Of a DNA stretch of 24,317 nucleotides, positions 1,937 through 16,981 are shown piece by piece. The notes below the pieces were generated by a model. That model made no database searches. It saw only the letters and a program-made list of their open reading frames with translations, and was not told the DNA's origin. Position 1 is the first letter of the stretch, and every line of letters starts with the position of its first letter. The DNA is from a virus. A program made the translations under genes and the position numbers. The stretch covers positions 1-24,317 of IMG/VR virus record IMGVR_UViG_3300014720_000181, one strand, 5' to 3'.

Positions 1937-1959
1937 AAACTAAAGTTGTTATAATGGAT
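1937..1959 (+). promoter_or_regulatory. Modular promoter copy 1
   Basis: AAACTAAAGTTGT followed by TATAAT (1950-1955) and GGAT. It has an extended -10 (TGT-TATAAT) and no -35 hexamer; the imperfect dyad AACTAAAGTT sits at about -24 to -15. It is the first of 21 copies and drives the gene at 1987. Confidence 0.85.
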
Positions 1960-1986
1960 CATACAACCTACAAAGAGGGGGAACAC

Positions 1987-2166
1987 ATGAAGAAAGTCAT
2001 GGTCATCGTGGATCAGCCGAATGGCCGATTCATCGGGGTCTACAAGAATCCGCGAGGCGGTCAGACGAAGATCGTCGGCCCGACGTTCGATGGATTCAAG
2101 ACTGCCGCAGAGGCGCGCAGGGTTGCGCGTGATCTCGGGTTTGAGCCTGTCGCCTGCGAATGGTGA
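1987..2166 (+). CDS. Hypothetical protein, 59 aa
   Basis: The start at 1987 is chosen because it follows the GAGGGGG ribosome-binding site; the upstream in-frame ATG at 1954 lies inside the promoter's -10 region and cannot be transcribed from it. This is a small basic protein (N-terminus MKKVMVIVDQPNGRF) with alternating hydrophobic residues suggesting a small beta-sheet fold. No family is recognised. A hairpin and promoter copy 2 follow it. Confidence 0.75.
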   Translation: MKKVMVIVDQPNGRFIGVYKNPRGGQTKIVGPTFDGFKTAAEARRVARDLGFEPVACEW

Positions 2167-2186
2167 CTCGGGTTCATTAGGCGTCT

Positions 2187-2212
2187 AGGTCCGGGCGGGA
2201 GGGCCCGGGCCT
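2187..2212 (+). terminator. GC-rich hairpin
   Basis: AGGTCCGGGC (2187-2196) pairs with GCCCGGGCCT (2203-2212), 10 bp with one G-T pair and loop GGGAGG. It ends 7 bp before promoter copy 2 and so insulates the next cassette. No T-tract is present. Confidence 0.6.
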
Positions 2213-2219
2213 GGCGTTG

Positions 2220-2242
2220 AAACTAAAGTTAGTATAATGGAA
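2220..2242 (+). promoter_or_regulatory. Modular promoter copy 2
   Basis: AAACTAAAGTTAG followed by TATAAT (2233-2238) and GGAA. This is the TAG variant, lacking the TGn extension. The predicted +1 coincides with an ATG at 2245. Confidence 0.85.
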
Positions 2243-2271
2243 TCATGACAACAACGACGAAGGGGACAACA

Positions 2272-2538
2272 ATGAATCTACAAGGACGAGTTGCGAAGTG
2301 CCAATGCGGTCGTACCGAGCCGTCGAGCGAGAAGCTGGCGTTCTTCGACTACCGCGGAGAGGGATCACAAGTCGCTCGAGAGCGATGCGGGACCTGCGCG
2401 TACCACGAGATCGCTCACACGCGAGCGAAGAATGATCCGACTGCGACGCACCTGCGTCACATCGCCGGGCACGACTTCCACGCGATCGGCGCTCTCGAGT
2501 ACGACATCTTCTACTGCGGTTGCAGAGGGTGGGACTGA
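2272..2538 (+). CDS. Cys/His-rich probable zinc-binding protein, 88 aa
   Basis: The start at 2272 follows CGAAGGGGACAACA, matching the shared leader of sister cassettes. An in-frame ATG at 2245 sits exactly at the predicted +1 and would give a 97-aa leaderless form whose extra residues are just translated leader. Cys/His pairs include CQCG near the N-terminus, CGTC followed by HEIAH mid-protein, and a closing YCGCRGWD motif seen in small actinophage proteins. Zinc binding is inferred; function is unknown. It is followed immediately (TGA then ATG) by the next gene. Confidence 0.75.
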   Translation: MNLQGRVAKCQCGRTEPSSEKLAFFDYRGEGSQVARERCGTCAYHEIAHTRAKNDPTATHLRHIAGHDFHAIGALEYDIFYCGCRGWD

Positions 2539-2796
2539 ATGAAGGTCTCACACGCAGACTTCAGCGCGCTTGTCGCGGCGCTGAGCGACATCGACACTCC
2601 AGAACTCCGCAGCCTGTATCGCATCGAGTTGGCGTGCGGGCGGGTGAAGGCCAAGGACCCGGAGAAGTTCTTCCGCTGGTACCTCTTCAATCGCGCGAGT
2701 GATCGCGGCTTCAAGTTCTCGACCCGGTACCGGGACGCTTGGATCGACACTGCCCTGCGCAACGCGGTCGACCCGGTGATGGATGAGGCCGGCTGA
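2539..2796 (+). CDS. Hypothetical protein, 85 aa
   Basis: The ATG abuts the previous stop (TGAATG), consistent with coupled translation. The protein is charged and helical, rich in Arg and aromatic residues (FFRWYLFNRASDRGFKF). No family is recognised. Its TGA supplies the first A of promoter copy 3. Confidence 0.7.
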   Translation: MKVSHADFSALVAALSDIDTPELRSLYRIELACGRVKAKDPEKFFRWYLFNRASDRGFKFSTRYRDAWIDTALRNAVDPVMDEAG

Positions 2797-2818
2797 AACT
2801 AAAGTTGTTATAATAGAT
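2796..2818 (+). promoter_or_regulatory. Modular promoter copy 3
   Basis: AAACTAAAGTTGT followed by TATAAT (2809-2814) and AGAT, fused to the TGA of the upstream gene. It drives 2846. Confidence 0.85.
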
Positions 2819-2845
2819 TACAGCCACAACGAAGGGACAAAAGAC

Positions 2846-3109
2846 ATGGCAACAAAGCAAGAACTGGAACTGAAGATCCTCGACTTGGAGAACGACGTCC
2901 GTCAACTCTCTCAAGTCCTCACCGAAGTGTACGTCTTGGCAAAGAGCGTCGACTTCAGCGAGTCATCTCCGATGGAGACCTGCCCGGCCTACCTGCTGGG
3001 TCGCATTGGATCATGCGCTCGCATGGCGTTCATGCGCTGCTTCACATTCGTCGGAGAGAGCTGGATCGAGAAGCTCGATCGAGCAGTCGAAGCAAAGGAT
3101 GCGGCATGA
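2846..3109 (+). CDS. Hypothetical coiled-coil protein, 87 aa
   Basis: The start at 2846 follows the standard leader (ACAACGAAGGGACAAAAGAC); an upstream in-frame ATG overlaps the promoter and is rejected. The N-terminal 30 residues form a heptad-like helix (LELKILDLENDVRQL), suggesting oligomerisation. The rest is helical with three Cys. Its stop overlaps the next start (ATGA). Confidence 0.7.
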   Translation: MATKQELELKILDLENDVRQLSQVLTEVYVLAKSVDFSESSPMETCPAYLLGRIGSCARMAFMRCFTFVGESWIEKLDRAVEAKDAA

Positions 3110-3399
3110 GCTTCATCGTCGACATCTACACGCGCAAGCGCGACATCGACACGTGGGACGTCTTTGCGAGGTACGCCCAAGATGATCCGATTCAACTCGG
3201 CATCATCACATTCAATGACAAGGGCTTCAACAAGCCGGACCCGTGGGTCCCGCGCGGACTCTACGATTCTCATCCGATGACGTGGTGCTCGACCAAGCGC
3301 GACGCGGTGCAGATGCTCTCGGCCAAGGTGCTTGAACACTTTGACTCGGCGTTGTGCCGCTACGGCAAACACACTTGGTCGTGGGTGAAAGTGCAATAA
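3106..3399 (+). CDS. Hypothetical protein, 97 aa
   Basis: The ATGA overlap with the upstream gene sets the start; earlier in-frame starts would lie far inside that gene. The protein is mixed alpha/beta with many aromatic residues (MSFIVDIYTRKRDIDTWDVF at the N-terminus). Two Cys are present but no clear zinc motif. Function unknown. Confidence 0.7.
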   Translation: MSFIVDIYTRKRDIDTWDVFARYAQDDPIQLGIITFNDKGFNKPDPWVPRGLYDSHPMTWCSTKRDAVQMLSAKVLEHFDSALCRYGKHTWSWVKVQ

Positions 3400-3400: not shown

Positions 3401-3757
3401 TTGCCTGCGGTCTGCGACGCGTGCGGCTTGCCGCAAGAGCCCACGATGTCTGGTGACAAGTACCTAGACAATGGGATCACGCTTCCGTTCAGAGCGTGCG
3501 GGCACTACAACGGCTTCACCGACAACGAGCCGTGGGAGGAGATCGAAGATGATGAGGTGTGGTCGCTATGCCATGACTGCGTCCTTCTATTCTTGCGGAC
3601 ATTCCCTCGCCTTGCGGCTAAACTGCCGCCAGGCCTGCATCCGTGTGCTGATGAAGTGCCGTGCTGTGAGTACGCGTGGAAGGCTCATCCCAGTGAGTCA
3701 GGCGTGCTGGTAGGTCGAAAAGATAAGACGGGTCGCCTTGTGTGGTCTGCTGAGTGA
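3401..3757 (+). CDS. Cys-rich zinc-binding protein, 118 aa, TTG start
   Basis: The frame has a stop at 3386, so the only early start is TTG at 3401, one base after the upstream stop. Using it keeps the N-terminal CDAC motif (Cys5, Cys8) that pairs with the later CHDC (Cys57, Cys60); an ATG at 3446 would lose it. Further Cys and His (RACGHYNG, VPCCEYAW) suggest one or two zinc sites. Function unknown; start moderately certain. Confidence 0.65.
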   Translation: MPAVCDACGLPQEPTMSGDKYLDNGITLPFRACGHYNGFTDNEPWEEIEDDEVWSLCHDCVLLFLRTFPRLAAKLPPGLHPCADEVPCCEYAWKAHPSESGVLVGRKDKTGRLVWSAE

Positions 3758-3759: not shown

Positions 3760-3782
3760 AAACTAAAGTTAGTATAATGGAT
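3760..3782 (+). promoter_or_regulatory. Modular promoter copy 4
   Basis: AAACTAAAGTTAG followed by TATAAT (3773-3778) and GGAT, starting 3 bp after the upstream TGA. It drives 3803. Confidence 0.85.
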
Positions 3783-3802: not shown

Positions 3803-4003
3803 ATGCTTTACTACTTCGCCAAAGACGGATCGTACGGTGATGCTGAAGACATCATCATCACAGACGTACCGGGCTTCACCGAAGACGAGTGGGACATCGT
3901 CGCGCAAACGCCCGACATGGAGAGGCATAACGTCGTCGCGCAGCTTCTGCGCAAGACTTCAGGCCAGGACACACTTCCATTCGTTGACGGGTCAGACTCT
4001 TAG
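3803..4003 (+). CDS. Hypothetical acidic protein, 66 aa
   Basis: ATG follows CGAAAGGAGAACAACATA. The protein is acidic (GYGDAED-type N-terminus, many Asp/Glu). No family is recognised. Its last codons contain the third GTTGACGGGTCAG 13-mer, and its TAG overlaps the GTG of the next gene by one base. Confidence 0.7.
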   Translation: MLYYFAKDGSYGDAEDIIITDVPGFTEDEWDIVAQTPDMERHNVVAQLLRKTSGQDTLPFVDGSDS

Positions 4004-4170
4004 TGGGTCTGTTCTCGGCCTACGTCGCTTACCGGATCGGCAAAAATGCCGGCCGAAAGCGGCTCAGGGAAGAGATCGCTCGTGAAGAGAAAAGACTTTC
4101 CGAAGTCTGCAAACACTGCGGCTTCGAAAGACGATTCCACGCGAACGACTGGATCAAGTCGTGCCCTTGA
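4003..4170 (+). CDS. Small zinc-ribbon protein with hydrophobic N-terminus, 55 aa, GTG start
   Basis: An open frame from GTG (4003, sharing the G of TAG) to TGA at 4168-4170. The N-terminus (VGLFSAYVAYRIGKNAGRKR) is a short amphipathic or hydrophobic segment followed by a basic charged helix, then CKHCGFERRF with a later Cys (WIKSC). This N-terminal anchor plus Zn knuckle layout recurs in small actinophage proteins. The stop is fused to promoter copy 5, which supports the gene's reality. Confidence 0.65.
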   Translation: MGLFSAYVAYRIGKNAGRKRLREEIAREEKRLSEVCKHCGFERRFHANDWIKSCP

Positions 4171-4192
4171 AACTAAAGTTGTTATAATAGAC
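4170..4192 (+). promoter_or_regulatory. Modular promoter copy 5
   Basis: AAACTAAAGTTGT followed by TATAAT (4183-4188) and AGAC, fused to the upstream TGA. It drives 4215. Confidence 0.85.
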
Positions 4193-4214
4193 TATACCAA
4201 CGAAAGGACAATTC

Positions 4215-4427
4215 ATGAAATACAAGTCAATCATCAATCCTGATTATCCGTTTCAAGTCACTGTTTCCGGTTTTGAGTTCAACTCGATTCCGGCGGTCTT
4301 GATCGAGAGCGATTCGTATCAAGCACTTCTTGATCTTTTGAATCCTGAACAACGAGAGACTCTGTACAACCTGGCGACTAGCAACAAGTTCGTCGGCTTC
4401 AGTGTGCGAGTGAACAACGCGTCATGA
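4215..4427 (+). CDS. Hypothetical protein, 70 aa
   Basis: ATG follows CCAACGAAAGGACAATTC. It is a small soluble protein without Cys motifs. Codon use is slightly more AT-rich than its neighbours. ATGA overlap with the next gene shows coupling. Confidence 0.7.
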   Translation: MKYKSIINPDYPFQVTVSGFEFNSIPAVLIESDSYQALLDLLNPEQRETLYNLATSNKFVGFSVRVNNAS

Positions 4428-4852
4428 CCACCTACAACCACATGCTTGAAGTCATTCAGACTCCAGGCCTCAGCACCTCTCAAAAGCTCCACGAGCTGTT
4501 CAAAGGCGCAAAGTCAAAGCCGCTTGACGAGTGCTACGACCACGAGCAGGATCACATGATCCCCGCGTTCCTCCATGAGAAGAATGCTGAGTGTGTTCAC
4601 ACAGATAACTACGGCCAGACTCTGACCTTCCGACTCAACGACGACACCTATGTCATGGTCGATTCCGGTACCTTCAATGAGGAGGGCACAGAGTTTGCGG
4701 TGTTCCCCTACGACGGGGTCGATGAAGATGGCATGTGGGAGTACTTCATGAGCGGAGACGACGTCCCGCTCGCGTTCTATCAGGGAGGCTTTATCGACGC
4801 CGACTTCGAGAAGTCGTTCCTAGCCTCATTCCCAGAGCAGAGTGTAAACTAA
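4424..4852 (+). CDS. Hypothetical acidic protein, 142 aa
   Basis: Starts in an ATGA overlap. The sequence is strongly acidic, with a central beta-rich stretch (TLTFRLNDDTYVMVDSGTF) and aromatic C-terminus. No family is recognised. The TAA stop lies inside promoter copy 6 (GTGTAAACTAAAG). Confidence 0.75.
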   Translation: MTTYNHMLEVIQTPGLSTSQKLHELFKGAKSKPLDECYDHEQDHMIPAFLHEKNAECVHTDNYGQTLTFRLNDDTYVMVDSGTFNEEGTEFAVFPYDGVDEDGMWEYFMSGDDVPLAFYQGGFIDADFEKSFLASFPEQSVN

Positions 4853-4868
4853 AGTTGTTATAATAGAA
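4846..4868 (+). promoter_or_regulatory. Modular promoter copy 6
   Basis: TAAACTAAAGTTGT followed by TATAAT (4859-4864) and AGAA. If the last T is -7, +1 is 4871, the A of the next gene's ATG. Confidence 0.85.
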
Positions 4869-4870: not shown

Positions 4871-5050
4871 ATGACAATCATCACAATGGCACAACTTGCC
4901 GCAGACATAATGGAAGACCTGGCCAACGACTACCCGGACTTTGACTCCGAGCACATCGAAGAGATGATCCGGAATGTCATCTGCTGCGAAGGCCTTACCA
5001 GGGCGCAGCAGAGAGAGCTCAGGGAAGAGATCGCCGAGCTCGGTTTCTAG
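4871..5050 (+). CDS. Leaderless small acidic protein, 59 aa
   Basis: ATG at the predicted +1 of promoter copy 6; no Shine-Dalgarno exists upstream of this or the next ATG (4886), so the mRNA is predicted to be leaderless. The product is acidic and helical (MTIITMAQLAADIMEDLAND; EEMIRN; REEIAELGF). No family is recognised. The TAG abuts promoter copy 7. Confidence 0.7.
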   Translation: MTIITMAQLAADIMEDLANDYPDFDSEHIEEMIRNVICCEGLTRAQQRELREEIAELGF

Positions 5051-5073
5051 AAACTAAAGTTAGTATAATGGAT
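5051..5073 (+). promoter_or_regulatory. Modular promoter copy 7
   Basis: AAACTAAAGTTAG followed by TATAAT (5064-5069) and GGAT, immediately after the upstream TAG. It drives 5103. Confidence 0.85.
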
Positions 5074-5102: not shown

Positions 5103-5579
5103 ATGAACAAGACAGCAACAACCCGAGCGCCGTGGGGCTTCACGACGACACGCGAAGAGGTGCCAGGCTTCGGCATGATCACCTTCTGCGTGGTAGACAA
5201 CAGAGAGCCAGAGCGTCTGCCCTGGTACAAGAACGCGAGCAAGATCCCCGCGGACATGCTCGCTGAAGCCGAAGCGGTCGCCCGCGAGATGTCGGAAGAC
5301 GACAAGGACTTCGAGTTCTTGATGCTCAACTGGCGAGGCGCGATGGTCGGCTACAGCTACGCGGTCCGTCTCTACATGCCGTGGTTCATGATGAGCCCGC
5401 GACAGGCGATCGCCTGGATGCGGAGCCTTTGCAACCACAAGTGGGGCGAGCGCCGTGAACACACAGCGCACAGCAACTACCACCTCGGGACATACGACAC
5501 CGGGTACAAGCACAACTGCTTGCGGTGCGGCAAGGAAGAGTACGTGACCACCGCGTTCAACAACTACTCGGGTGACTGA
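5103..5579 (+). CDS. Hypothetical protein with C-terminal zinc-like motif, 158 aa
   Basis: ATG follows CACAACGAAAGGACAAACTG. The N-terminal two thirds is mixed alpha/beta with no known motif. The C-terminus has Cys110-Asn-His112 and Cys139-x2-Cys142 (CNHKW...NCLRCGKEE), a likely zinc knuckle. Function unknown. The downstream gene begins one base after its stop. Confidence 0.75.
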   Translation: MNKTATTRAPWGFTTTREEVPGFGMITFCVVDNREPERLPWYKNASKIPADMLAEAEAVAREMSEDDKDFEFLMLNWRGAMVGYSYAVRLYMPWFMMSPRQAIAWMRSLCNHKWGERREHTAHSNYHLGTYDTGYKHNCLRCGKEEYVTTAFNNYSGD

Positions 5580-5580: not shown

Positions 5581-5793
5581 ATGAGCGACCCGATCATTGG
5601 AGCGACAGTCGTCGAGATCCGTCCCATGACTGCGGACGAGATGAAGGCAGAAGGCTGGATGAAGCGTGAGGTGCCGGCGTGCGTCGTGCTCTCAACAGGT
5701 GTGATCCTGTACCCGTCGATGGACACCGAAGGCAATGATGCGGGTGCGCTGTTTGGAATCGACAACGCCGGCTCGACATTCTGTCTCGCTTGA
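5581..5793 (+). CDS. Hypothetical conserved actinophage protein, 70 aa
   Basis: ATG one base after the upstream TGA; an in-frame GTG at 5572 could extend it by 3 residues. The pattern PMTADEMKAEGW followed by VVLSTGVILYPSMD and EGNDAGALFG resembles a small beta-rich family common in actinophages, function unknown. Its TGA is fused to promoter copy 8. Confidence 0.7.
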   Translation: MSDPIIGATVVEIRPMTADEMKAEGWMKREVPACVVLSTGVILYPSMDTEGNDAGALFGIDNAGSTFCLA

Positions 5794-5815
5794 AACTAAA
5801 GATAGTATAATGGAT
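5793..5815 (+). promoter_or_regulatory. Modular promoter copy 8
   Basis: AAACTAAAGATAG followed by TATAAT (5806-5811) and GGAT, fused to the upstream TGA. The GATAG variant disrupts the dyad. The next ATG lies at +2. Confidence 0.8.
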
Positions 5816-5818: not shown

Positions 5819-5959
5819 ATGAAGAAGCCGATCAACAAGTGGAGCGATGCAGATCGCAGAGCATTCCAAGCCGGAGTGCGGCTGCGAGCGCAGACGATGC
5901 CTAACAAGCGTCGCGAGGCGAGCCGCAAGGCGTGCCGCGGGAACGACTGGGTTGCATGA
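5819..5959 (+). CDS. Small basic protein, 46 aa, near-leaderless
   Basis: The ATG lies one base after the predicted +1 and no ribosome-binding site precedes it. The protein is Arg/Lys-rich (AQTMPNKRREASRKACRGND), suggesting nucleic-acid or acidic-partner binding, but no family is recognised. ATGA overlap with the next gene. Confidence 0.65.
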   Translation: MKKPINKWSDADRRAFQAGVRLRAQTMPNKRREASRKACRGNDWVA

Positions 5960-6162
5960 CGCGCCCGCCTCTCTCTACAGACGAGACAGCCCGGATGATG
6001 GAGATACTTGGCACGATGCGGGTTCCGCCGTTCCGGTTAGATCCGATCGACAGCGGGTGGCTTCTCCGCAACATCGCGGTCGAGAACTTTGGTCGCCCAG
6101 AACTCGCAGAGGTCATTGGACTATTGCGCAGGGTGCCCCGTCTAGGAGGAGTGTCACGATGA
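5956..6162 (+). CDS. Hypothetical protein, 68 aa
   Basis: Start fixed by the ATGA overlap. Mixed helical sequence rich in Pro and Arg (MTRPPLSTDETARMMEILGT). No family is recognised. The end (CACGATGA) overlaps the next start. Confidence 0.65.
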   Translation: MTRPPLSTDETARMMEILGTMRVPPFRLDPIDSGWLLRNIAVENFGRPELAEVIGLLRRVPRLGGVSR

Positions 6163-6350
6163 ACGTGTGGCTAAGTCCTACGAAGGGAGTGCGGAAGAGC
6201 GTGAGGCAGACTCTGCACGACCACGGCCTGCGGTATGCGCTGGCCGGTCATCCGCACGACGACATTCTCTACGTGCGGTCGTTGGAAGATGGCTGGTACG
6301 GCTGGTTCAACAGAGAGGACGTTGAGGTTTCTTACGACTTCGTGTCGTAG
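6159..6350 (+). CDS. Hypothetical protein, 63 aa
   Basis: ATG after TAGGAGGAGTGTCACG, a strong ribosome-binding site, with ATGA coupling. The sequence is beta-rich (DDILYVRSLEDGWYGWF) and may be a small SH3-like barrel, though this is only a guess. Its TAG stop forms the start of a TAGAAT -10-like box preceding galU. Confidence 0.7.
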   Translation: MNVWLSPTKGVRKSVRQTLHDHGLRYALAGHPHDDILYVRSLEDGWYGWFNREDVEVSYDFVS

Positions 6351-6436: not shown

Positions 6437-7234
6437 ATGAATACAGCGACATCGACATCAGTACGCACCGCGGTCATTCCAGTCGCAGGCGTAGGTTCTA
6501 GGTTTGCTCCAGTAAGTTATTACGTACCAAAAGAGTTGCTACCGATCTACAACATACCTGCTCTTCAGTACGTCATCAGCGAAGCGCTCAGCGCGGGGAT
6601 AGAGCGGATTATTCTCGTGTCAAGTGATAGCAAGCCAGCGATCAACACGTTTGCTGAAACTTTGTGGTGCTCGTCGCAGATCGAGGTTGTCTATCAAGAA
6701 GAGCCGCTAGGGCTCGGACATGCGGTCCTGTGCGCGCGTCACGCGGTGGCTGGCGAGTCATTTGCGGTCTTGCTGCCAGACGAGATCATGAGTTCGTGGG
6801 AGCCTCTTCAGCAAATGATCAAAGAGCACACAAGAACAGGTAACTGCGTTGTCATGCTTCAACAAGTCCCGCAATCAGAAATAAGTAGGTACGGAATCGC
6901 GGACATGCACAGCGACTCGATGATCTCCCGGGTCGTCGAAAAGCCGACGCCCGAGAATGCACCAAGCAACCTTGCAATTGTCGGAAGGTACGTCCTGTGC
7001 TTTGAGATTATGAACTACCTGATGGACTGCCCTCCAGGAGCCCTAGGAGAGGTCCAGCTGACAGATGCCCTTCAGGTTGCTGCAGATGCGGGCTTCCTGC
7101 GTGGACACACCTCTGGAGTCCTCCGGTGGGACACTGGCAATCCGATGGGCATGTTCTTGGCCAACTACGACCACGTGGTCAAAGACCCCAGCCTGCGCAA
7201 TCGTCTGGTCGAACACCAGTCCTGGGGGCAGTGA
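6437..7234 (+). CDS. galU: UTP--glucose-1-phosphate uridylyltransferase (UDP-glucose pyrophosphorylase)
   Basis: Makes UDP-glucose from UTP and glucose-1-phosphate. The 265-aa product keeps the family signatures in order: nucleotide-binding AGVGSRFAPVS (17-27), VPKELLP (30-36), EEPLGLGHAV (88-97), LLPDEI (112-117), RYGIAD (151-156), VEKP (167-170), GRYVL (183-187), GEVQLTDAL (204-212) and the metal-binding WDTGNPMG (231-238). It is slightly shorter than host enzymes (about 290-300 aa). Start ATG follows AGGAGAGAGACAAA. It is alone between short unknown genes; no glycosyltransferase was recognised nearby, so the user of UDP-glucose (DNA modification, cell-wall change or host metabolism) is unknown. 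The TGA is fused to promoter copy 9. Confidence 0.92.
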   Translation: MNTATSTSVRTAVIPVAGVGSRFAPVSYYVPKELLPIYNIPALQYVISEALSAGIERIILVSSDSKPAINTFAETLWCSSQIEVVYQEEPLGLGHAVLCARHAVAGESFAVLLPDEIMSSWEPLQQMIKEHTRTGNCVVMLQQVPQSEISRYGIADMHSDSMISRVVEKPTPENAPSNLAIVGRYVLCFEIMNYLMDCPPGALGEVQLTDALQVAADAGFLRGHTSGVLRWDTGNPMGMFLANYDHVVKDPSLRNRLVEHQSWGQ

Positions 7235-7256
7235 AACTAAAGTTGTTATAATGGAT
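7234..7256 (+). promoter_or_regulatory. Modular promoter copy 9
   Basis: AAACTAAAGTTGT followed by TATAAT (7247-7252) and GGAT, fused to the galU stop. It drives the WGR-like gene at 7297. Confidence 0.85.
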
Positions 7257-8105: not shown

Positions 8106-8128
8106 AAACTAAAGTTGTTATAATGGAA
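8106..8128 (+). promoter_or_regulatory. Modular promoter copy 10
   Basis: AAACTAAAGTTGT followed by TATAAT (8119-8124) and GGAA. Two hairpins insulate it from the upstream gene. It drives 8173. Confidence 0.85.
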
Positions 8129-8172
8129 TACAGGAATACCAAACCACTACAAAAGAAAAGGACAACAAAGCA

Positions 8173-8406
8173 ATGTCAACAACCATCTACAGCCACGGAG
8201 GCAGCGACCAGAAGTCAGAAGCGCCGACGATCACCATCTCAGTGTGGTCCGACTACGTCGTCGTCAAGTTCATGCGCTCCGACTTCGAGACCTCATTCTT
8301 CGTCAAGCCAGAAGCTGACGAGTCGATGGACGCGCTCGTCGGCCGAGTCACTCGTTCGGTGACTCCGACCATCGAGTTCGTCAGCAACGGGGCGGTAGCG
8401 TCTTGA
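8173..8406 (+). CDS. Hypothetical protein, 77 aa
   Basis: ATG follows AAGAAAAGGACAACAAAGCA. Beta-rich sequence (TITISVWSDYVVVKFM), no Cys motifs, no family recognised. TTGA overlap with the next gene. Confidence 0.7.
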   Translation: MSTTIYSHGGSDQKSEAPTITISVWSDYVVVKFMRSDFETSFFVKPEADESMDALVGRVTRSVTPTIEFVSNGAVAS

Positions 8407-8612
8407 AGCACAAGGTAGTGCTCCGATTCCCTGCGGAGGCCGTGATGACGTTCGTCGTCACGTCCTCCAGCGAGGAAGAGCTCAAGTCACGCGTGAACTC
8501 ACTCGTGACGTTCGCGGACTCAGAAGGCGCCGACCTCATTCATCGCTTTGACGAGTGCACAGGCGGAGACGCCGAGGTTTCCGTCATTGAAGAGCTCAAG
8601 GAAGAAAACTAA
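8403..8612 (+). CDS. Hypothetical protein, 69 aa, TTG start
   Basis: TTG overlapping the upstream TGA (TTGA) is the only sensible early start. Alternating beta and helix (TTG, then KHKVVLRFPAE; SEEELKSRVNSL). The TAA stop is the TAA inside AACTAAAG of promoter copy 11. No family recognised. Confidence 0.65.
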   Translation: MKHKVVLRFPAEAVMTFVVTSSSEEELKSRVNSLVTFADSEGADLIHRFDECTGGDAEVSVIEELKEEN

Positions 8613-8628
8613 AGTTGTTATAATAGAC
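8606..8628 (+). promoter_or_regulatory. Modular promoter copy 11
   Basis: AAACTAAAGTTGT followed by TATAAT (8619-8624) and AGAC; contains the upstream stop codon. It drives 8661. Confidence 0.85.
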
Positions 8629-8660: not shown

Positions 8661-8909
8661 ATGAAGACAGAAGAGATCAAGAGCACCGTAATGGTGCCAG
8701 GCACCTTGTTCGCAAAGGTTGAGTACGGAAGAATAGTGGGCTTCACATTCTCACCTGCAGCAGCCGATGCGGGCTACTTCGGAGATGAGATCACCGTCTA
8801 CGACGGGGACGACATTGAAGCGGACAAGTTCTTTGACCTGGTGAGCAACATGCTCAGCATCACACAGGACAAGCAGTCAGCAGTCTTTGCCTGCGAGTGG
8901 CAGTCTTGA
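8661..8909 (+). CDS. Hypothetical acidic protein, 82 aa
   Basis: ATG follows CAACGAAAGGACCCAAAGACAC. Acidic, beta-rich N-terminal half and helical C-terminal half. No family recognised. The TGA is fused to promoter copy 12. Confidence 0.7.
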   Translation: MKTEEIKSTVMVPGTLFAKVEYGRIVGFTFSPAAADAGYFGDEITVYDGDDIEADKFFDLVSNMLSITQDKQSAVFACEWQS

Positions 8910-8931
8910 AACTAAAGTTGTTATAATAGAA
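8909..8931 (+). promoter_or_regulatory. Modular promoter copy 12
   Basis: AAACTAAAGTTGT followed by TATAAT (8922-8927) and AGAA. Predicted +1 is 8934, the A of the next ATG. Confidence 0.85.
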
Positions 8932-9411: not shown

Positions 9412-10086
9412 GTGACAACAATTCTTGCGGTTCAAGGCAAAGGCTGGGCTGTTGTCGGGTTTGACTCGCGCATCTCAACTGACGACACGAACAGAGTGTC
9501 GACGCTTGGTCGTGGAGTTGAAAAGGTCGCAAAGAACGGAGATTACTTGATCGGCGCCGCGGGCGACGTCAGAGCGATCAACATTCTTTCGTACTCATTC
9601 AACCCTCCAAAGCCAGACGACAACATTGGTCTCAAACTTGATCGCTTCATGACTACGCGGTTCATTCCCGCGCTGCGGAAGTGTTTCGAAGATCAAGGCT
9701 ACGCGGTCAAAAGCGCAGACTCAGAAGAAGGCACGGCGATCCACGGTTCTACAATTCTTGTTGTTGTCAACGGAGTAATCTACGAGATCGACTCTGACTA
9801 CGCCTGGGCTCGCGACACGTACGGCTTGTACGGTGCGGGCAGCGGAGGAGACTATGCGCTTGGTGCTCTGCACGGACTATTCGGCAAAAAGAGCCAGTTG
9901 AATGTTGAAGAAACAAAGATAGAAGTCCGTAAAGCACTCGAAGTAGGCGCAAAACTTGACGCCGCTTCAGGTGCGCCGTTTCACATCTTGTTTCAAGCGG
10001 GGCCGGCCGAACGAAAGCGACGAACAGCAAAAAAGAAGAAAGCAGTAAAGAAACACCGCACGCGGAAGAAACTAAAGAAGTTATAA
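9412..10086 (+). CDS. HslV/proteasome-beta-like Ntn-hydrolase (threonine protease), 224 aa
   Basis: GTG start; after Met removal the N-terminus is TTILAV, as in HslV (TTI...). Family residues match: catalytic Thr2 (mature Thr1), Asp18 in VGFDSR (mature Asp17), Lys38 in GVEKV (the HslV Lys33 equivalent), GSGGDYALGAL (143-153) and DAASG (183-187), the proteasome DxxSG motif. Residues 200-224 are an extra Lys/Arg-rich tail not found in HslV or bacterial proteasome subunits. No HslU-like ATPase is in the window. The last codons and TAA overlap promoter copy 13. It probably assembles as a ring peptidase; target and ATPase partner are unknown. Confidence 0.8.
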   Translation: MTTILAVQGKGWAVVGFDSRISTDDTNRVSTLGRGVEKVAKNGDYLIGAAGDVRAINILSYSFNPPKPDDNIGLKLDRFMTTRFIPALRKCFEDQGYAVKSADSEEGTAIHGSTILVVVNGVIYEIDSDYAWARDTYGLYGAGSGGDYALGALHGLFGKKSQLNVEETKIEVRKALEVGAKLDAASGAPFHILFQAGPAERKRRTAKKKKAVKKHRTRKKLKKL

Positions 10087-10091
10087 TAAAT
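10069..10091 (+). promoter_or_regulatory. Modular promoter copy 13 (divergent), inside a coding tail
   Basis: AAACTAAAGAAGT followed by TATAAT (10082-10087) and AAAT. It lies over the C-terminal codons of the protease gene (KKLKKL-stop); the TAA stop is in the -10 box. GAAGT replaces GTTGT, widening the AACT/AGTT dyad. It drives whiB. Confidence 0.7.
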
Positions 10092-10137: not shown

Positions 10138-10422
10138 ATGGTCAAACGAAAAACTTGGTCGGACGACGCGACATACCCAGATCGACCTGAATGGCACGGC
10201 CGCGGAGCATGCCGCGGACAAGGCAAATTGTTCTTTGACGACAAGAAAAAGTCAAATGTAGCAAAGGCTAAAGCGCTTTGCGGGATCTGCGTCGTGAAAG
10301 ACCTGTGCTTGAAGTACGCGATGGAAAACGACGACTTCGGAGTCTGGGGTGGACTTACTCTAAACGAGCGCCGAGTCATGCGAAGAAAAGCGCGGAAGTC
10401 CGCAATGAGGCTTGCGAAATGA
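10138..10422 (+). CDS. whiB: WhiB-family transcriptional regulator, 94 aa
   Basis: WhiB-like proteins hold a [4Fe-4S] cluster and bind region 4 of the principal sigma factor. Cluster ligands are Cys25, Cys48, Cys51 and Cys57 (C-x22-C-x2-C-x5-C), followed by the diagnostic turn GVWGG (68-72) and a basic C-terminal helix (ERRVMRRKARKSAMR). Start follows TTTTGGAAGGACAAAACT. Phage WhiB proteins, such as that of mycobacteriophage TM4, are known to down-regulate host WhiB2 and alter cell division. Here it may also affect the modular promoters, which lack a -35. Its own promoter is the most divergent copy. Confidence 0.93.
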   Translation: MVKRKTWSDDATYPDRPEWHGRGACRGQGKLFFDDKKKSNVAKAKALCGICVVKDLCLKYAMENDDFGVWGGLTLNERRVMRRKARKSAMRLAK

Positions 10423-10437: not shown

Positions 10438-10584
10438 ATGAAAGAGAAAAAGTCAAAAATAGCCAAAAAGTTCAAGTGCCCGAAGTGTGACAACTTCATA
10501 GTCGTTCATGTGCGGCTGTCAGCGCCGCCAACGTGCAGCCGCCACTCGCCGAGCGCAATTGAGATGGTATCCGCAAGCAACTAA
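10438..10584 (+). CDS. Zinc-finger micro-protein, 48 aa
   Basis: ATG after GTCGAAAGCTT (weak ribosome-binding site). After a Lys-rich N-terminus come Cys14-x2-Cys17 (KCPKCDNF) and Cys33-x2-His36 (TCSRH), one compact zinc ribbon. The TAA touches promoter copy 14, the same stop-promoter fusion seen at accepted genes, which supports it. Function unknown. Confidence 0.65.
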   Translation: MKEKKSKIAKKFKCPKCDNFIVVHVRLSAPPTCSRHSPSAIEMVSASN

Positions 10585-10606
10585 AACTAAAGTTGTTATA
10601 ATGGAT
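10584..10606 (+). promoter_or_regulatory. Modular promoter copy 14
   Basis: AAACTAAAGTTGT followed by TATAAT (10597-10602) and GGAT, sharing one base with the upstream TAA. It drives 10630. Confidence 0.85.
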
Positions 10607-10629: not shown

Positions 10630-10845
10630 ATGGGACTGCAAGACGCGATAGAAGAGCGAGTGATCTCAACGTACGGCTGGGCGATGCGGATCGGCATCAA
10701 CCAGGTTGCGGACAAGTCTGGCGTCACGCTACGCAAGATCAAGTCGATGCTGACTGACCCGCTGCGGATGAAGAACTCGGACTACGACAAGGTCCTGAAG
10801 GCGTGTCACACGCTGGATCCGGACTTCAAGGCCCGGGACAACTAA
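10630..10845 (+). CDS. Probable helix-turn-helix protein, 71 aa
   Basis: ATG follows CAACACGAAGGGACGCAC. The segment GINQVADKSGVTLRKIKSML reads as helix-turn-helix with the second helix contacting DNA, as in small XRE/Cro-type phage regulators, though shorter. It could be a repressor of the dyad-containing promoters, but that is speculation. The TAA stop lies inside AACTAAAG of promoter copy 15. Confidence 0.65.
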   Translation: MGLQDAIEERVISTYGWAMRIGINQVADKSGVTLRKIKSMLTDPLRMKNSDYDKVLKACHTLDPDFKARDN

Positions 10846-10861
10846 AGTTAGTATAATTGAA
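10839..10861 (+). promoter_or_regulatory. Modular promoter copy 15
   Basis: CAACTAAAGTTAG followed by TATAAT (10852-10857) and TGAA; the first A is lost. Contains the upstream TAA. It drives 10891. Confidence 0.8.
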
Positions 10862-11409: not shown

Positions 11410-11963
11410 TGAGGACGAGCGCCGTTTCACTTGTGTCGAACGTTGGCAATGGGCTCGTTGAGTTCGACTACTCGTTTCCAGTCGAAGAGACTCAACTAAA
11501 CACCTTGCTCGCCGGGACATCGTTGCTTCACTTTGAACTTGAAAAAGGCCTGAACGTGTGGTATGAACCGTGCGAGTATCGGATCTGCAAGATGTATGAA
11601 ACGACCGGTCGAGCTGATCTAAAAGAAGTGAATGCGCTTTGTGCTTCAATCATGCTCGGGTTCGGTTGGGACTGGGGCAAGAACAAGTGGATCCCGGTCA
11701 ACACCGCGGTGTTCGCGGGTGAGCGGAAGACAGGTGGCAAGTGGAGAGTTTCTAGTTTCTACAGACCACACGATCACTACGGACTTTCAGAAGACCACAT
11801 CGCGAAGATCACGATGATCAACAACCTTCTCATAGCGGAGCAAAAAGAACGCGGAATCAGCATGAAAGACTACAAGGCTTGGGAAGACTGGAATCCGTAC
11901 GCGTCGTTTCCAGACCTGGGTCGACTGGTCGAGCAGGGGCTCAACCATCGATTACAAAACTAA
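11409..11963 (+). CDS. Hypothetical protein, 184 aa
   Basis: Starts one base into the upstream TGA (TGATG). Long mixed alpha/beta protein with many Trp (WDWGKNKWIPV, KAWEDWNPY), no recognised motif. Often such a protein follows the MGMD-type family in phages, suggesting joint function. Its TAA lies inside promoter copy 16. Confidence 0.75.
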   Translation: MRTSAVSLVSNVGNGLVEFDYSFPVEETQLNTLLAGTSLLHFELEKGLNVWYEPCEYRICKMYETTGRADLKEVNALCASIMLGFGWDWGKNKWIPVNTAVFAGERKTGGKWRVSSFYRPHDHYGLSEDHIAKITMINNLLIAEQKERGISMKDYKAWEDWNPYASFPDLGRLVEQGLNHRLQN

Positions 11964-11979
11964 AGTTGTTATAATGGAT
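11957..11979 (+). promoter_or_regulatory. Modular promoter copy 16
   Basis: AAACTAAAGTTGT followed by TATAAT (11970-11975) and GGAT; contains the upstream stop. It drives 12019. Confidence 0.85.
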
Positions 11980-12018: not shown

Positions 12019-12216
12019 GTGGCAATCAAGAACAAGCACATCAAAACACTCGAGAGCGTGTTGTCGCGGATCAGCGTCCTCACGTTCGAAATTGAAGAGA
12101 GGAAGACAGAGCTGTCAGAGTTGGCAGAGCACCTTGCTCAGTTTCAATTCTCGCTCGACGTGAGCATTCGCGATCTTGCTCGTGAACACGGCATCAAGGC
12201 GAAGCCGGTTCTCTAA
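12019..12216 (+). CDS. Coiled-coil protein, 65 aa, GTG start
   Basis: GTG at 12019 is chosen because it follows AGAGAGGAA; the in-frame ATG at 11974 overlaps the -10 box and the transcription start. Heptad-like leucines run through most of the protein (LESVLSRISVLTFEIEERK; LSELAEHLAQ). Probably oligomeric; function unknown. Confidence 0.65.
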   Translation: MAIKNKHIKTLESVLSRISVLTFEIEERKTELSELAEHLAQFQFSLDVSIRDLAREHGIKAKPVL

Positions 12217-12825: not shown

Positions 12826-13144
12826 CAACACGCTACTGAACGAAGCACGTGAGATAATGGTGCGATCACGTGACTGGCTGGCGAATCAACCAGCGGATAC
12901 AGCACCCGTCAACAACAACCAACAGGAGAGTGAACCAAAGATGGACACTGTAGAAACAAAAGCCGAGTTGACGCCGCAAGCAGCGGCTCAGCTCTATTCA
13001 GCAGGGAAAACTGTTTACGAGGTCGCCGTCATGAACGGCATCACGTACTCAAAGGCCCGCAAGCTGATCGTCGCGAGCGGCACGCCGATTCGCAACGCAT
13101 CCGACCGCCTCAAGGGTCGCACCCGCAAGAAGGGCGATGCCTAA
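12812..13144 (+). CDS. HTH-like protein, 110 aa (alternative start 12941)
   Basis: The C-terminal half (LTPQAAAQLYSAGKTVYEVA, then NGITYSKARKLIV) is a helix-turn-helix of the homeodomain-like or resolvase-tail type. ATG at 12812 overlaps the upstream gene; ATG at 12941 has a better leader (CAACAGGAGAGTGAACCAAAG) and would give 67 aa with the whole HTH. The 43 extra residues look like real protein (LNEAREIMVRSRDWLANQ), so both are possible. Its end overlaps the next gene by 8 bp. Confidence 0.65.
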   Translation: MIASSNTLLNEAREIMVRSRDWLANQPADTAPVNNNQQESEPKMDTVETKAELTPQAAAQLYSAGKTVYEVAVMNGITYSKARKLIVASGTPIRNASDRLKGRTRKKGDA

Positions 13145-13289
13145 TAACGTCGTCTGGTCCGCGGTAGCGGCTGCGGTACTGGCGGCAGCGTCAGTCACTA
13201 CAGCCGTTATCGCGGCCGGTGGATCCACGGCGGCGATCTGCCTTGGTCTGGCTGGTCTGACCCTGGCTGTCCTTACCCCAAGGGGGTAA
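13137..13289 (+). CDS. Small Ala-rich membrane protein, 50 aa
   Basis: ATG at 13137 follows AAGAAGGGCG and overlaps the upstream stop. Nearly the whole protein is hydrophobic: span 1 at about 5-27 (VVWSAVAAAVLAAASV) and span 2 at about 32-47 (AAICLGLAGLTLAVL), separated by Gly-Gly-Ser. The TAA is fused to promoter copy 17. Could act with the two-span protein just upstream; function unknown. Confidence 0.6.
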   Translation: MPNNVVWSAVAAAVLAAASVTTAVIAAGGSTAAICLGLAGLTLAVLTPRG

Positions 13290-13311
13290 AACTAAAGTTG
13301 GTATAATGGAT
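13289..13311 (+). promoter_or_regulatory. Modular promoter copy 17
   Basis: AAACTAAAGTTGG followed by TATAAT (13302-13307) and GGAT, fused to the upstream TAA. It drives 13335. Confidence 0.85.
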
Positions 13312-13334: not shown

Positions 13335-13916
13335 ATGGAAACCATGAATCTCATCCCGGCGACCCAGAAGCAGGTAGACTACCTGCGGTCTCTGATCGCC
13401 AACAAGCAAGTCACCGAGACCGAGCGCGCCGACTGGTTCGACCGCCTCAACCGCGGGTACTTCGACAAAACCGGCGCAAGCAAACTCATCGACGAGTTGG
13501 TCAAGCGCCCGTACAAGCCGTACGAGCCGACCGCGAAGCCGAAGGCGAACCCGGTCATCCAAGAGTTGCTCGCGACGATTCCAAAGTCGCGGTACGCTCT
13601 CAAGGTCGCGGACTTCACCATCGCAGGGATCGACCACACGTTCACCGGTGACTTGGTGTTCATCCAAGTCAAAGAGTACATGGGCACTCTCTACATGCGG
13701 CAGCTGCTCGGATCGTTCGGCGGATTCACTCGCAAGAAGATGACCACCGAGCAGATCAAGTTGGCCGTCGCTCTCGTCAAGGCAGACCCGTACGCCGCGA
13801 CCAAGCGATTCGGCGAGCACTACTCGTGCTGCGGATGCTGCGGAGCGGAACTCACCGACGAGCGCAGCCGCGAACTTCAACTCGGACCAGAATGCAGAAA
13901 AAAGTTCGGGTTCTAA
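13335..13916 (+). CDS. Two-module protein with C-terminal DUF6011-like zinc motif, 193 aa
   Basis: Start follows CCAACCTGAAAGGACAGCA. The N-terminal module (ATQKQVDYLRSLIANKQV) resembles the short helical repeat found alone in the gene at 16699. The C-terminus (CCGCCGAELT...LGPECRKKFGF) matches the pattern of DUF6011 (CxxCgrxLtd...GPxC), likely zinc-binding. The middle is beta-rich (TFTGDLVFIQVKEYMG). These domain pairs occur in actinophages; function unknown. A large hairpin follows the stop. Confidence 0.78.
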   Translation: METMNLIPATQKQVDYLRSLIANKQVTETERADWFDRLNRGYFDKTGASKLIDELVKRPYKPYEPTAKPKANPVIQELLATIPKSRYALKVADFTIAGIDHTFTGDLVFIQVKEYMGTLYMRQLLGSFGGFTRKKMTTEQIKLAVALVKADPYAATKRFGEHYSCCGCCGAELTDERSRELQLGPECRKKFGF

Positions 13917-13993: not shown

Positions 13994-14002
13994 TGTTATA
14001 AT
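13994..14002 (+). promoter_or_regulatory. Core-only relative of the modular promoter
   Basis: TGT-TATAAT (extended -10) followed by G, identical to the core of the modular promoter but lacking the upstream AACTAAAG element. Predicted +1 is 14009, 19 bases before the ATG at 14028. Confidence 0.5.
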
Positions 14003-15188: not shown

Positions 15189-15451
15189 GTAAGTCGAAAC
15201 TAAAGTACGACTGCCAAGTTTGCGGAGATCTGTTCGCAACGATCACCGATCACATGACTCACTTCGTCAAAGAGCACCCCGAGTACAACAGAGCCGCCGG
15301 GAGACGACTTCGTAGGAAGGTGACGTGCTGGCGGTGCGTCTCGGAGATTCCGGTGGGCGAGGACGGCCGCTACCGTTGCCAGTGCGGATTCGTGATGCCG
15401 AGAAAAGACCCTGAGGGTGGTTGGCTGCTAGAAGACGATTCAAGAAACTAA
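15185..15451 (+). CDS. C2H2-like zinc-finger protein, 88 aa, GTG start
   Basis: GTG overlaps the upstream TGA (TTGTGA). CQVCGDLFATITDHMTHF ending in KEH gives Cys-x2-Cys-x12-14-His-x-His spacing of a single C2H2 finger; a second module CWRC...CQCGF may bind another zinc. C2H2 fingers are uncommon in phage proteins. Basic linker (RRLRRK) suggests nucleic-acid binding. Its TAA lies inside promoter copy 18. A partial GAAACTAAAG at 15195 is coding here, not a promoter. Confidence 0.72.
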   Translation: MSKSKLKYDCQVCGDLFATITDHMTHFVKEHPEYNRAAGRRLRRKVTCWRCVSEIPVGEDGRYRCQCGFVMPRKDPEGGWLLEDDSRN

Positions 15452-15467
15452 AGTTGTTATAATGGAT
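15445..15467 (+). promoter_or_regulatory. Modular promoter copy 18
   Basis: AAACTAAAGTTGT followed by TATAAT (15458-15463) and GGAT; contains the upstream stop. It drives 15508. Confidence 0.85.
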
Positions 15468-15507
15468 CATGTACCTGGTCAAAAGGTCAGGACAGAAGGG
15501 ACACACA

Positions 15508-15717
15508 ATGGCAATGACAGATGAAGCTCTCTCGCTAGAGAGCATGAACAAGGGCGCGTACCGAGGCTACATGGTCTTCGGCAACGTCGTCGAACTCTGG
15601 TTCTCCAGCCCGACTGGAGACGAGAGCGACTCGCTCATCTTCAAGATGACTTGCCTCAGCCCGGCTCAGGCGACGGAGATCGCCCTGATGCACAACCGGG
15701 TCTGGGGTCGCATCTAA
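15508..15717 (+). CDS. Hypothetical protein, 69 aa
   Basis: ATG 15508 follows CAGAAGGGACACACA; an in-frame ATG at 15469 falls at -1/+1 of the promoter and is rejected. Leader ACCTGGTCAAA...TCAGG is shared with the gene at 15844. Beta-rich (YMVFGNVVELWFSSPTG). No family recognised. Hairpin follows. Confidence 0.7.
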   Translation: MAMTDEALSLESMNKGAYRGYMVFGNVVELWFSSPTGDESDSLIFKMTCLSPAQATEIALMHNRVWGRI

Positions 15718-15734
15718 GACACGGATCAAGCGGA

Positions 15735-15777: not shown

Positions 15778-15800
15778 AAACTAAAGTTGTTATAATGGTA
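15778..15800 (+). promoter_or_regulatory. Modular promoter copy 19
   Basis: AAACTAAAGTTGT followed by TATAAT (15791-15796) and GGTA, insulated from upstream by a hairpin. It drives 15844. Confidence 0.85.
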
Positions 15801-15843
15801 TTGTAACCTGGTCAAAGGGGTCAGGTACAGAGGGGAACCAACA

Positions 15844-16194
15844 ATGATTACCACGGTAGATAGGAAGGCGGAGGTCCGGGAAGCAATCTCCCGGCTCGTC
15901 GTCTGGATGAATGAAGCGCACGCCGCTCACATGGCCAAGCACTTCAAGACATTGGCACCGGAAACCTACGAGGTCGCCGGCGGTCGCAAGTACATCCGCA
16001 TCGCATCGGTCAGCCAGTACGGTGGCCGCTCGGTTCACTGCTTCGTTGACGCCGCGACAGGCGACGTCTACAAGGCCGGCGGGTGGAAGGCACCAGCGCT
16101 CAACGGCGCTCGCTACAACATCCTTGACGCGGGCTCGCTCGAGACGCTCAAGGCGAAGTGGGATCCATACACGTCCTACCTCTACAAGCGCTAA
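15844..16194 (+). CDS. Conserved phage protein, 116 aa
   Basis: ATG after CAGAGGGGAACCAACA. The C-terminal two thirds (GRKYIRIAS; GGRSVHCFVDAATGDVYKAG; WKAPALNGARYNI) matches a small family common in phages, function unknown. An N-terminal helix precedes it. A 12-bp hairpin follows. Confidence 0.8.
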   Translation: MITTVDRKAEVREAISRLVVWMNEAHAAHMAKHFKTLAPETYEVAGGRKYIRIASVSQYGGRSVHCFVDAATGDVYKAGGWKAPALNGARYNILDAGSLETLKAKWDPYTSYLYKR

Positions 16195-16202
16195 GCGGAT
16201 CG

Positions 16203-16230
16203 GCCGGCCAGCCCACTCGGGCTGGCCGGC
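16203..16230 (+). terminator. Perfect 12-bp hairpin
   Basis: GCCGGCCAGCCC (16203-16214), loop ACTC, GGGCTGGCCGGC (16219-16230). It begins 8 bp after the stop at 16194. No T-tract; strong GC terminator-like hairpin. Confidence 0.65.
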
Positions 16231-16278
16231 TGGCCACCGGCGAAATGAAAGTTTGAATCAGCGACGAAAGGAAGATTG

Positions 16279-16650
16279 ATGCTGAGGAAGTTGATCAGAG
16301 AGTTGCGGGAAGAGCGAGAGTACATTCGTGCGCTTCCGAAGTTGACGCGAAACGAGTTCAACTCGTGGCCGGATCCACGCGGAGAAGTTCGCGGATCGAA
16401 GAGCGAGAAGCCGAAGCCGAAGCAGAAAGCGGTGATGGGAGATGTAGCGCCGAGGAAAGGACCGTACTTCGTGATCGTGCGTCACAGCGATCAAAAAGTT
16501 TGGTGTGGTCCGTGGAAGTACGACGGAGAACGCTTCTCAAGTGTGCCAAAGAACTGGTGCTTGTACCGCGAACGCGATGCGGCGCAAAGCGCGATTGATT
16601 GGAGCACGTGGGACTTTCGCGTCGACATCGAAGAGTTCGAGTCGCTCTGA
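16279..16650 (+). CDS. Hypothetical basic protein, 123 aa
   Basis: ATG follows GCGACGAAAGGAAGATTG, the same leader style though no modular promoter precedes it. N-terminal charged helix, a Lys/Pro-rich linker (SEKPKPKQKAV), then a beta-rich half (PYFVIVRHSDQKVWCGPWKY). No family recognised. Transcription may come from a promoter overlapping the hairpin region, not identified. Its TGA is fused to promoter copy 20. Confidence 0.72.
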   Translation: MLRKLIRELREEREYIRALPKLTRNEFNSWPDPRGEVRGSKSEKPKPKQKAVMGDVAPRKGPYFVIVRHSDQKVWCGPWKYDGERFSSVPKNWCLYRERDAAQSAIDWSTWDFRVDIEEFESL

Positions 16651-16672
16651 AACTAAAGTTGTTATAATGGAT
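16650..16672 (+). promoter_or_regulatory. Modular promoter copy 20
   Basis: AAACTAAAGTTGT followed by TATAAT (16663-16668) and GGAT, fused to the upstream TGA. It drives 16699. Confidence 0.85.
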
Positions 16673-16698
16673 CATACAACCTACTGAAAGGACCAGTA

Positions 16699-16902
16699 AT
16701 GACCGCATACGACATCTCCCGAATCGCCACCCAAGGCCAACTCGCGTACCTGGCTGACCTTGTGCGCACCCGCCAGTTCACCGCTGAACCCGGCACCTGG
16801 CTCGCGGAGTTCTTGGCCGGCCGCTGCCCCAGCAACTTCCTCCAGTGCTCCGCGGCGATTGACCGCCTGCGCAAGGCGCCACGCAAGGCGCCGCGCCGCT
16901 AA
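16699..16902 (+). CDS. Small protein sharing the N-terminal module of the 13335 gene, 67 aa
   Basis: ATG after CTACTGAAAGGACCAGTA. ATQGQLAYLADLVRTRQFTA resembles the N-terminal module of the DUF6011-like protein at 13335, here as a stand-alone unit with a basic C-terminal tail coded by a short duplication (CGCAAGGCGCC twice). Function unknown. Confidence 0.7.
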   Translation: MTAYDISRIATQGQLAYLADLVRTRQFTAEPGTWLAEFLAGRCPSNFLQCSAAIDRLRKAPRKAPRR

Positions 16903-16912
16903 CGCGGGCCCG

Positions 16913-16942
16913 CCGGGCTGGGGCCCTGATTCCCTGGCCCGG
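16913..16942 (+). terminator. 11-bp hairpin with wobble pairs
   Basis: CCGGGCTGGGG (16913-16923) pairs with CCCTGGCCCGG (16932-16942), two G-T pairs, 8-nt loop. It insulates promoter copy 21. Confidence 0.5.
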
Positions 16943-16958
16943 TATAGGTCCGTCTCTG

Positions 16959-16981
16959 AAACTAAAGTTGTTATAATGGAC
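16959..16981 (+). promoter_or_regulatory. Modular promoter copy 21 (last)
   Basis: AAACTAAAGTTGT followed by TATAAT (16972-16977) and GGAC. It drives the second WGR-like gene; no further copies occur downstream in the head module. Confidence 0.85.

Follow-up and report, generated by a model that had tools for sequence, protein, structure and literature searches.

A putative repeated promoter with a −22 box at the seams of small-gene cassettes in an uncultured phage and its relatives

A repeated motif upstream of the terminase

The DNA analyzed here, which we call the window, is the 24,317-base IMG/VR virus record IMGVR_UViG_3300014720_000181, a genome fragment of a phage whose host probably belongs to the freshwater actinobacteria. 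In its accessory region of small genes, upstream of the terminase, the sequence AAACTAAAG followed by four variable bases (N4) and TATAAT occurs 21 times (20 exact copies and one reading CAACTAAAG), always on the + strand and spanning positions 1937 to 16977 (Table 1). Dinucleotide shuffles give a chance expectation of 0.11 for this pattern. A preliminary description of the DNA had already counted 21 copies on the + strand but with five variable bases; the count is borne out, whereas the spacer is four, and the five-base pattern has no match in the window even when 3 mismatches are allowed. TATAAT itself is found 22 times, all on the + strand, versus 1.6 expected, and 21 of these carry the upstream box. 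The spacer reads TTGT in 14 copies, TTAG in four, and ATAG, TTGG and AAGT in one each.

Every copy lies shortly before a gene, with 6–53 nucleotides (nt) between TATAAT and the start codon when the gene starts are those we selected, which agrees with the 0–60 bp given earlier. Equally in line with the preliminary description, the head module is free of copies: there are none in the terminase–portal part and none beyond 16,977. The leader motif that it had proposed holds in part, since GAAAGGACAA with at most one mismatch occurs 11 times in the window versus 1.7 expected, and 10 of the 11 occurrences lie inside leaders of motif copies, where they form the Shine–Dalgarno region. A scan of the window for classic −35/−10 promoters returned weak hits only, none of which used the TATAATs of the motif, and an Rfam search of the window gave no match.

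Table 1. The 21 motif copies and two candidate DNA-binding factors in the window. Coordinates of copies cover box, N4 and TATAAT (19 nt); gene starts were chosen from open reading frames (ORFs) and Shine–Dalgarno-like sequences.
Feature	Coordinates	Strand	Genes and remarks
Copy 1	1937..1955	+	1987-2166; seam, one extra cassette here in G003/G005
Copy 2	2220..2238	+	2272-2538 (or in-frame ATG 2245, 6 nt after TATAAT), 2539-2796; GC hairpin just upstream
Copy 3	2796..2814	+	2846-3109, 3106-3399, 3401-3757
Copy 4	3760..3778	+	3803-4003, 4003-4170
Copy 5	4170..4188	+	4215-4427 (cassette X, relocated in G005), 4424-4852
Copy 6	4846..4864	+	Leaderless 4871-5050, ATG 6 nt after TATAAT
Copy 7	5051..5069	+	5103-5579, 5581-5793
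Copy 8	5793..5811	+	Leaderless 5819-5959, then 5956-6162, 6159-6350, 6437-7234 (nucleotidyl transferase)
Copy 9	7234..7252	+	7297-7548, paralogue of 17031-17282
Copy 10	8106..8124	+	8173-8406 (cassette W, relocated in G005 and G003); GC hairpin upstream
Copy 11	8606..8624	+	8661-8909
Copy 12	8909..8927	+	Leaderless ORF 8934-9044, genes 9087-9407, 9412-10086 (HslV-like)
Copy 13 (spacer AAGT)	10069..10087	+	WhiB gene 10138-10422, 10438-10584
Copy 14	10584..10602	+	10630-10845
Copy 15 (CAACTAAAG)	10839..10857	+	10891-11409, 11409-11963
Copy 16	11957..11975	+	12019-12216, relocated with promoter and leader in G004/G006
Copy 17	13289..13307	+	13335-13916 (DUF6011) and following genes
Copy 18	15445..15463	+	15508-15717; another in-frame ATG at 15469
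Copy 19	15778..15796	+	15844-16194, 16279-16650; strong hairpin upstream
Copy 20	16650..16668	+	16699-16902; promoter and leader near-identical to copy 1
Copy 21	16959..16977	+	17031-17282, 17389-17628; strong hairpin upstream
WhiB-family regulator	10138..10422	+	Pfam PF02467, 8.9e-17; candidate polymerase partner at these promoters
67-residue helix-turn-helix protein	12941..13144	+	Conserved through the family; second candidate DNA-binding partner

Anatomy and constraint of the motif

With TATAAT numbered −12 to −7, the conserved information is limited to about −27 to −3 and reads tgAAACTAAAGTTGTTATAATGGAt. It contains two invariant hexamers, CTAAAG (−22 to −17) and TATAAT, exactly 4 bp apart, so that the center of the box lies 10 bp, or one helical turn, from that of the −10. 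The TATAAT-like −10 of a sigma-70/sigma-A promoter is thus present in 21 of 21 copies and is accompanied by a GGA(T) discriminator. The extended −10 TGn (−15 to −13) is found in 15 of the 21 copies in the window and is absent from the promoter types of several lineages; the box, present in all copies, is the steadier of the two. As expected of a sigma-A promoter independent of a −35, positions −44 to −28 drift freely and no information was found at −47 to −28 in any of five genomes, from which we conclude that there is no −35 element. In 16 of the 21 cases, the copy overlaps the stop codon of the ORF before it or lies at most 3 bp away, so that any −35 region would fall inside coding sequence; such a placement suits an element that needs nothing upstream of −27.

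The comparison of 17 orthologous promoter pairs from relatives that are about 80% identical revealed where selection acts. CTAAAG and TATAAT are each identical at 102 of 102 positions, versus 87% identity for N4, 79% for −44 to −28, and 81–87% for the other flanks. In a survey of eleven sequences, the spacing between box and TATAAT was 4 in 156 of 158 distinct cases; no minus-strand copies were present, and free-standing boxes were few, three of them in L156, where weaker −10s follow.

Over 162 distinct CTAAAG promoters, open ATG frames of at least 30 codons begin 6 nt after TATAAT 28 times and 7 nt after it 7 times, hardly ever at 8–19 nt, and at scattered positions from 20 nt on. This peak is as expected if transcription starts about 7 nt after TATAAT and leaderless genes are mixed with genes that have a Shine–Dalgarno sequence, and it indirectly supports a putative +1 at that position. 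By their ATG offset, the ORFs at 4871, 5819 and 8934 in the window are leaderless. The rigid spacing, the selection on two hexamers and the ATG peak at 6–7 nt, the place for which that description had predicted +1, lend support to the preliminary proposal that the motif is a promoter.

Distribution among relatives

Among named phages, only Actinomycetia phage DSL-LC01 (OQ999401) is a close relative; its circular genome of 129,469 bp was metagenome-assembled from Dishui Lake, and its host is predicted only (PMC10611076). DSL-LC01 shares with the window the gene order CobT/VWA, small genes, HslV-like, WhiB, terminase, portal. Its genome is complete and contains about 30 motif copies on one strand, all within 22.6–43.3 kb, a 21-kb region before the terminase; a search of the complete genome found none in the structural, replication and other modules. 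The flanks of the box have drifted, with ATTCTAAAG in place of AAACTAAAG, and CTAAAG is kept where AAA became ATT. Two TATAATs outside the array, ahead of the genes for thymidylate kinase and pyrimidine-dimer glycosylase, read TACCTGT-TATAAT. Along with the one TATAAT in the window that lacks a −22 box (13997-14002, preceded by CCTGT), these sites (~84349 and 99666 in DSL-LC01) perhaps represent a second, plain extended −10 class of promoter.

Seven IMG/VR relatives (G001–G007) have 5–29 copies each and are strand-pure except for one weak match in G001. Among 80 relatives identified through their terminase, CTAAAG-N4-TATA[AG]T occurs 94 times on the terminase strand and 0 times on the other, and a control with the reversed hexamer gave 0 matches. 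Single exact matches to a 15-base pattern in many IMG/VR contigs were taken as chance, and only multi-copy contigs were followed.

Absence of the motif from relatives with the same genes had been named as a test of the idea, and its outcome is divided: close relatives keep the motif, whereas distant ones have a different box in the corresponding position or, in a single clade, only the extended −10. The alternative boxes are CTnnGG(ATTG) in L138, L139, L168 and L160, CCAGAG in L150 and L154, CTACAA in L161, and CTGAGC in L171. The clade with only C[CA]TGA-TATAAT is well supported and comprises L174, L183, L188, L189, L199, L204, L205 and others. In further distant relatives, the 10 kb preceding the terminase contain no array, and none was seen in the regions read of the cultured relatives Pumpernickel, A3Wally, Cece, GodonK and GMA2; Sixama has seven TGATATAAT on the minus strand. 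A blastn search of 50,697 phage records, weakly sensitive owing to the short query, found no array besides that of DSL-LC01. The 21-base form of the motif had no actinobacterial match among genome contigs of 84,980 species, and its four single hits, all in Firmicutes, were taken as chance; this speaks against a common host promoter, with shorter forms lying outside that scan.

Cassette rearrangements

Comparison with relatives showed that rearrangement seams coincide with the putative promoters. Relative to G005, the blocks 4170-4427 and 8106-8409 have exchanged positions, and in G003 block 8106-8409 comes after block 4170-4427. In G004 and G006, the gene 12019-12216 has moved, together with its promoter and leader, to a site ahead of the last promoter. 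One additional unit is present at the position of copy 1 in both G003 and G005; in G005, it consists of a promoter and one 99-codon gene, ends at the next promoter, and is flanked by two promoter copies that share the rare spacer TTTG. Where upstream gene and promoter are shared, gene X comes next in the window and in G003, and an unrelated gene does so in G005; the gene X of G005 bears the leader of copies 1 and 20 of the window. Across the accessory region, the gene order of DSL-LC01 and the IMG/VR relatives is extensively shuffled relative to the window. The earlier suggestion that promoter–gene cassettes can be gained or swapped is thus upheld by promoter-to-promoter units that have been inserted, relocated or replaced between relatives of about 80% identity. 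The common control of the cassettes that was suggested along with it is plausible. Leader hairpins below −7 kcal/mol were predicted at 5 of 21 copies, and upstream hairpins with z below −2 at 4 of 21.

Other features of the window

The genes 7297-7548 and 17031-17282, each directly behind a promoter copy, encode paralogous small proteins that are widespread in the relatives and matched no known family. The leaderless 36-codon ORF 8934-9044, which begins 6 nt after a promoter copy and has a homologue in G005, encodes a very arginine-rich peptide. Between the gene for a peptidoglycan-binding protein and the gene upstream of the portal lies a repetitive stretch (19586-20435) with the 10-bp unit CACTACACAC from 19955 to 20248, followed by CACT-rich repeats; because the unit has no stops, the stretch contains several overlapping long open frames.

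Discussion

The most attractive explanation of these observations, to which we assign a probability of roughly 0.77, is that the 21 copies constitute one class of phage promoter for a host sigma-A-type polymerase, with an obligatory CTAAAG box and no −35, which also serves as the seam between cassettes. Such a promoter would combine an optimal −10 TATAAT, usually a TGn, and a GGA(T) discriminator with the box 4 bp upstream. Transcription would start about 7 nt after TATAAT, leaving some genes leaderless and others with a Shine–Dalgarno leader of 20–45 nt, and each copy would drive between one and a few of the small accessory genes that precede the terminase. Since the conserved information fits into about 25 bp, usually placed where the previous gene ends in its stop codon, each unit from one promoter to the next would be self-contained, and homologous recombination between copies would insert, replace or relocate single cassettes. 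Transcription of the copies, the polymerase used and the timing in infection are what we infer from the DNA; a host sigma-A-type polymerase is the likely user in view of TATAAT, TGn, the GGA discriminator and general knowledge of such elements.

Several points weigh against this interpretation. Lineages without the box exist, so the layout does not strictly require it. There is no excess of terminators and the cassettes are not insulated, so read-through may put many genes in overlapping transcripts. Neighboring genes had parted in 16 of 46 cases with a promoter between them versus 14 of 80 without over 15 comparisons, a modest effect (Fisher p = 0.03) among non-independent pairs. Finally, the identities of the polymerase and the host are ones that we infer.

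In cluster A mycobacteriophages, repressors act at stoperators, which define immunity groups and are also found away from promoters. The boxes could likewise be operators or stoperators, at which a phage repressor bound to CTAAAG silences the promoters in lysogeny, with the boxes of the lineages marking immunity groups. That the box differs between lineages, as repressor sites do, that DSL-LC01 encodes a recombinase and that VIBRANT classed it as lysogenic (PMC10611076) would fit, but in 156 of 158 cases the box keeps a fixed distance of 4 bp to TATAAT, and it hardly ever occurs without a −10, which is unlike stoperators. There is also no second site per promoter, and no repressor turned up, though no systematic repressor search was made; we therefore consider this explanation unlikely. 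We are similarly doubtful that the copies are ordinary extended −10 promoters of the host, near-identical through recent copying of cassettes by duplication or gene conversion and lacking any special −22 element. Mosaicism is evident, copies 1 and 20 share even their leaders, and the two promoters flanking the inserted cassette of G005 have the same rare spacer. Against this, CTAAAG is perfectly conserved at orthologous positions while the flanks and N4 drift, and it persists in DSL-LC01 despite the change of AAA to ATT; an extended −10 alone would not need the box, which is in all copies although TGn is missing from 6 of 21.

The length and near-identity of the copies also resemble the 20–23-bp promoters of T7-type enzymes, and a phage-encoded single-subunit or virion RNA polymerase might read them. 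TATAAT, TGn and the discriminator are features of bacterial sigma promoters, however, and the clade that switched to CTGA-TATAAT retains the −10. None of 16 records, among them the complete DSL-LC01, matched PF00940, a result that is weak since control genomes were also unmatched. Altogether, a T7-type polymerase seems very improbable.

If the copies are sigma-A-type promoters, two explanations for the box suggest themselves: a phage protein bound to CTAAAG may make up for the absent −35, by analogy with MotA at T4 middle promoters, or the host polymerase itself may favor such a spacer sequence. The WhiB gene of the window is a natural candidate here, since proteins of this family bind the principal sigma factor at its region 4, and the reader of the box is perhaps a phage factor such as WhiB. 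Neither WhiB nor the 67-residue helix-turn-helix protein, considered as determinants of box specificity, aligns so as to visibly track the box variants. No other small ORF is as widely conserved in the family as the latter (52 relatives, 44–86% identity outside the near-identical L134), which had no Pfam or PHROG match and is also present where no array was seen.

In the C[CA]TGA-TATAAT clade, WhiB was not found in the searched records, which are fragments. These records carry a 200-residue protein with a sigma-70 region-4 helix-turn-helix (Pfam 8.6e-9), which tblastn found in no WhiB lineage; conversely, no sigma-70 region 4 scored above the cut-off in records of WhiB lineages. The protein of about 200 residues (L183, 4005-4607; relatives in L174, L185, L186, L188, L189, L194, L199, L204 and L205) has a possible second helix-turn-helix and occurs only in the clade without WhiB and the −22 box. 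The exchange of WhiB for the sigma-4-like protein is one event on the terminase tree and thus a lead, not a correlation. Tentatively, one may go further and propose a new bipartite class of phage promoter, in which a −22 box one turn upstream of a sigma-A −10 would be read by a phage-encoded specificity factor. On this speculative proposal, the host polymerase would make no −35 contact, the box would drift by lineage while keeping its position, and the element would act as a recombination seam. One clade would, again tentatively, have lost the box along with the HslV-adjacent WhiB and have the sigma-region-4-like helix-turn-helix protein instead.

Shuffling of genes at repeated promoters is already known from the promoter early stem-loops (PeSLs) of T4-type phages (Arbiol 2010 and Comeau 2014, as cited in PMC4503421). 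As far as that secondary account goes, PeSLs resemble the present array in having repeated promoters among small accessory genes whose cassettes are shuffled between related phages, but they differ from it in that here hairpins occur at a minority of copies, no stem-loop is conserved, and terminators are not in excess. Judged by the same account, the phage group and host phylum are also different, and the promoter here has a −22 box and no −35. The relatives of the window are actinophages, with no close T4-type match. Like the MotA/AsiA-dependent middle promoters of T4 (PMC2988021), the copies have a stringent sigma −10, often with TGn, and a phage-specific box that replaces the −35; the MotA box, however, is centered at −30, lies 12 ± 1 bp from the −10 and tolerates changes, whereas the box here is invariant and 4 bp away (156/158). 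T4 early promoters are likewise many, strong, of one class, placed at prereplicative genes and of a consensus beyond that of the host, but they have UP, −35, TGn and −10 elements (PMC2988021), while −35 and upstream information is lacking here. Start-associated sequences (SAS) and ESAS of cluster K mycobacteriophages and cluster EF Microbacterium phages are comparable as one-orientation repeats at gene starts in non-structural regions with lineage-specific variants, yet SAS is a 13-bp ribosome-binding-site element and ESAS an inverted repeat, and neither is a −10 promoter (PMC3203893, PMC7302621). The SAS consensus GGGATAGGAGCCC has 3 matches with 3 mismatches in the window, below chance and none at these genes. 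The likeness to cluster K suggested previously therefore does not extend beyond location, since the consensus is absent and SASs sit at ribosome-binding sites (PMC3203893).

We came across no earlier account of this promoter: the word promoter is absent from the DSL-LC01 paper (PMC10611076), and no other phage record of the collection showed an array in the blastn search. While the shuffling of genes at repeated promoters is not new, the parts and geometry of this promoter are different. The present observations extend such shuffling from T4-type phages to phages of another bacterial phylum, at single-gene resolution, and provide a compact promoter signature by which accessory regions can be recognized in uncultured actinophages. 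The more than 150 natural copies and their lineage variants are material for finding the factor that reads the −22 box. If it is true that WhiB or the sigma-region-4-like protein reads it, the widespread and poorly understood WhiB proteins of phages would gain a testable role.

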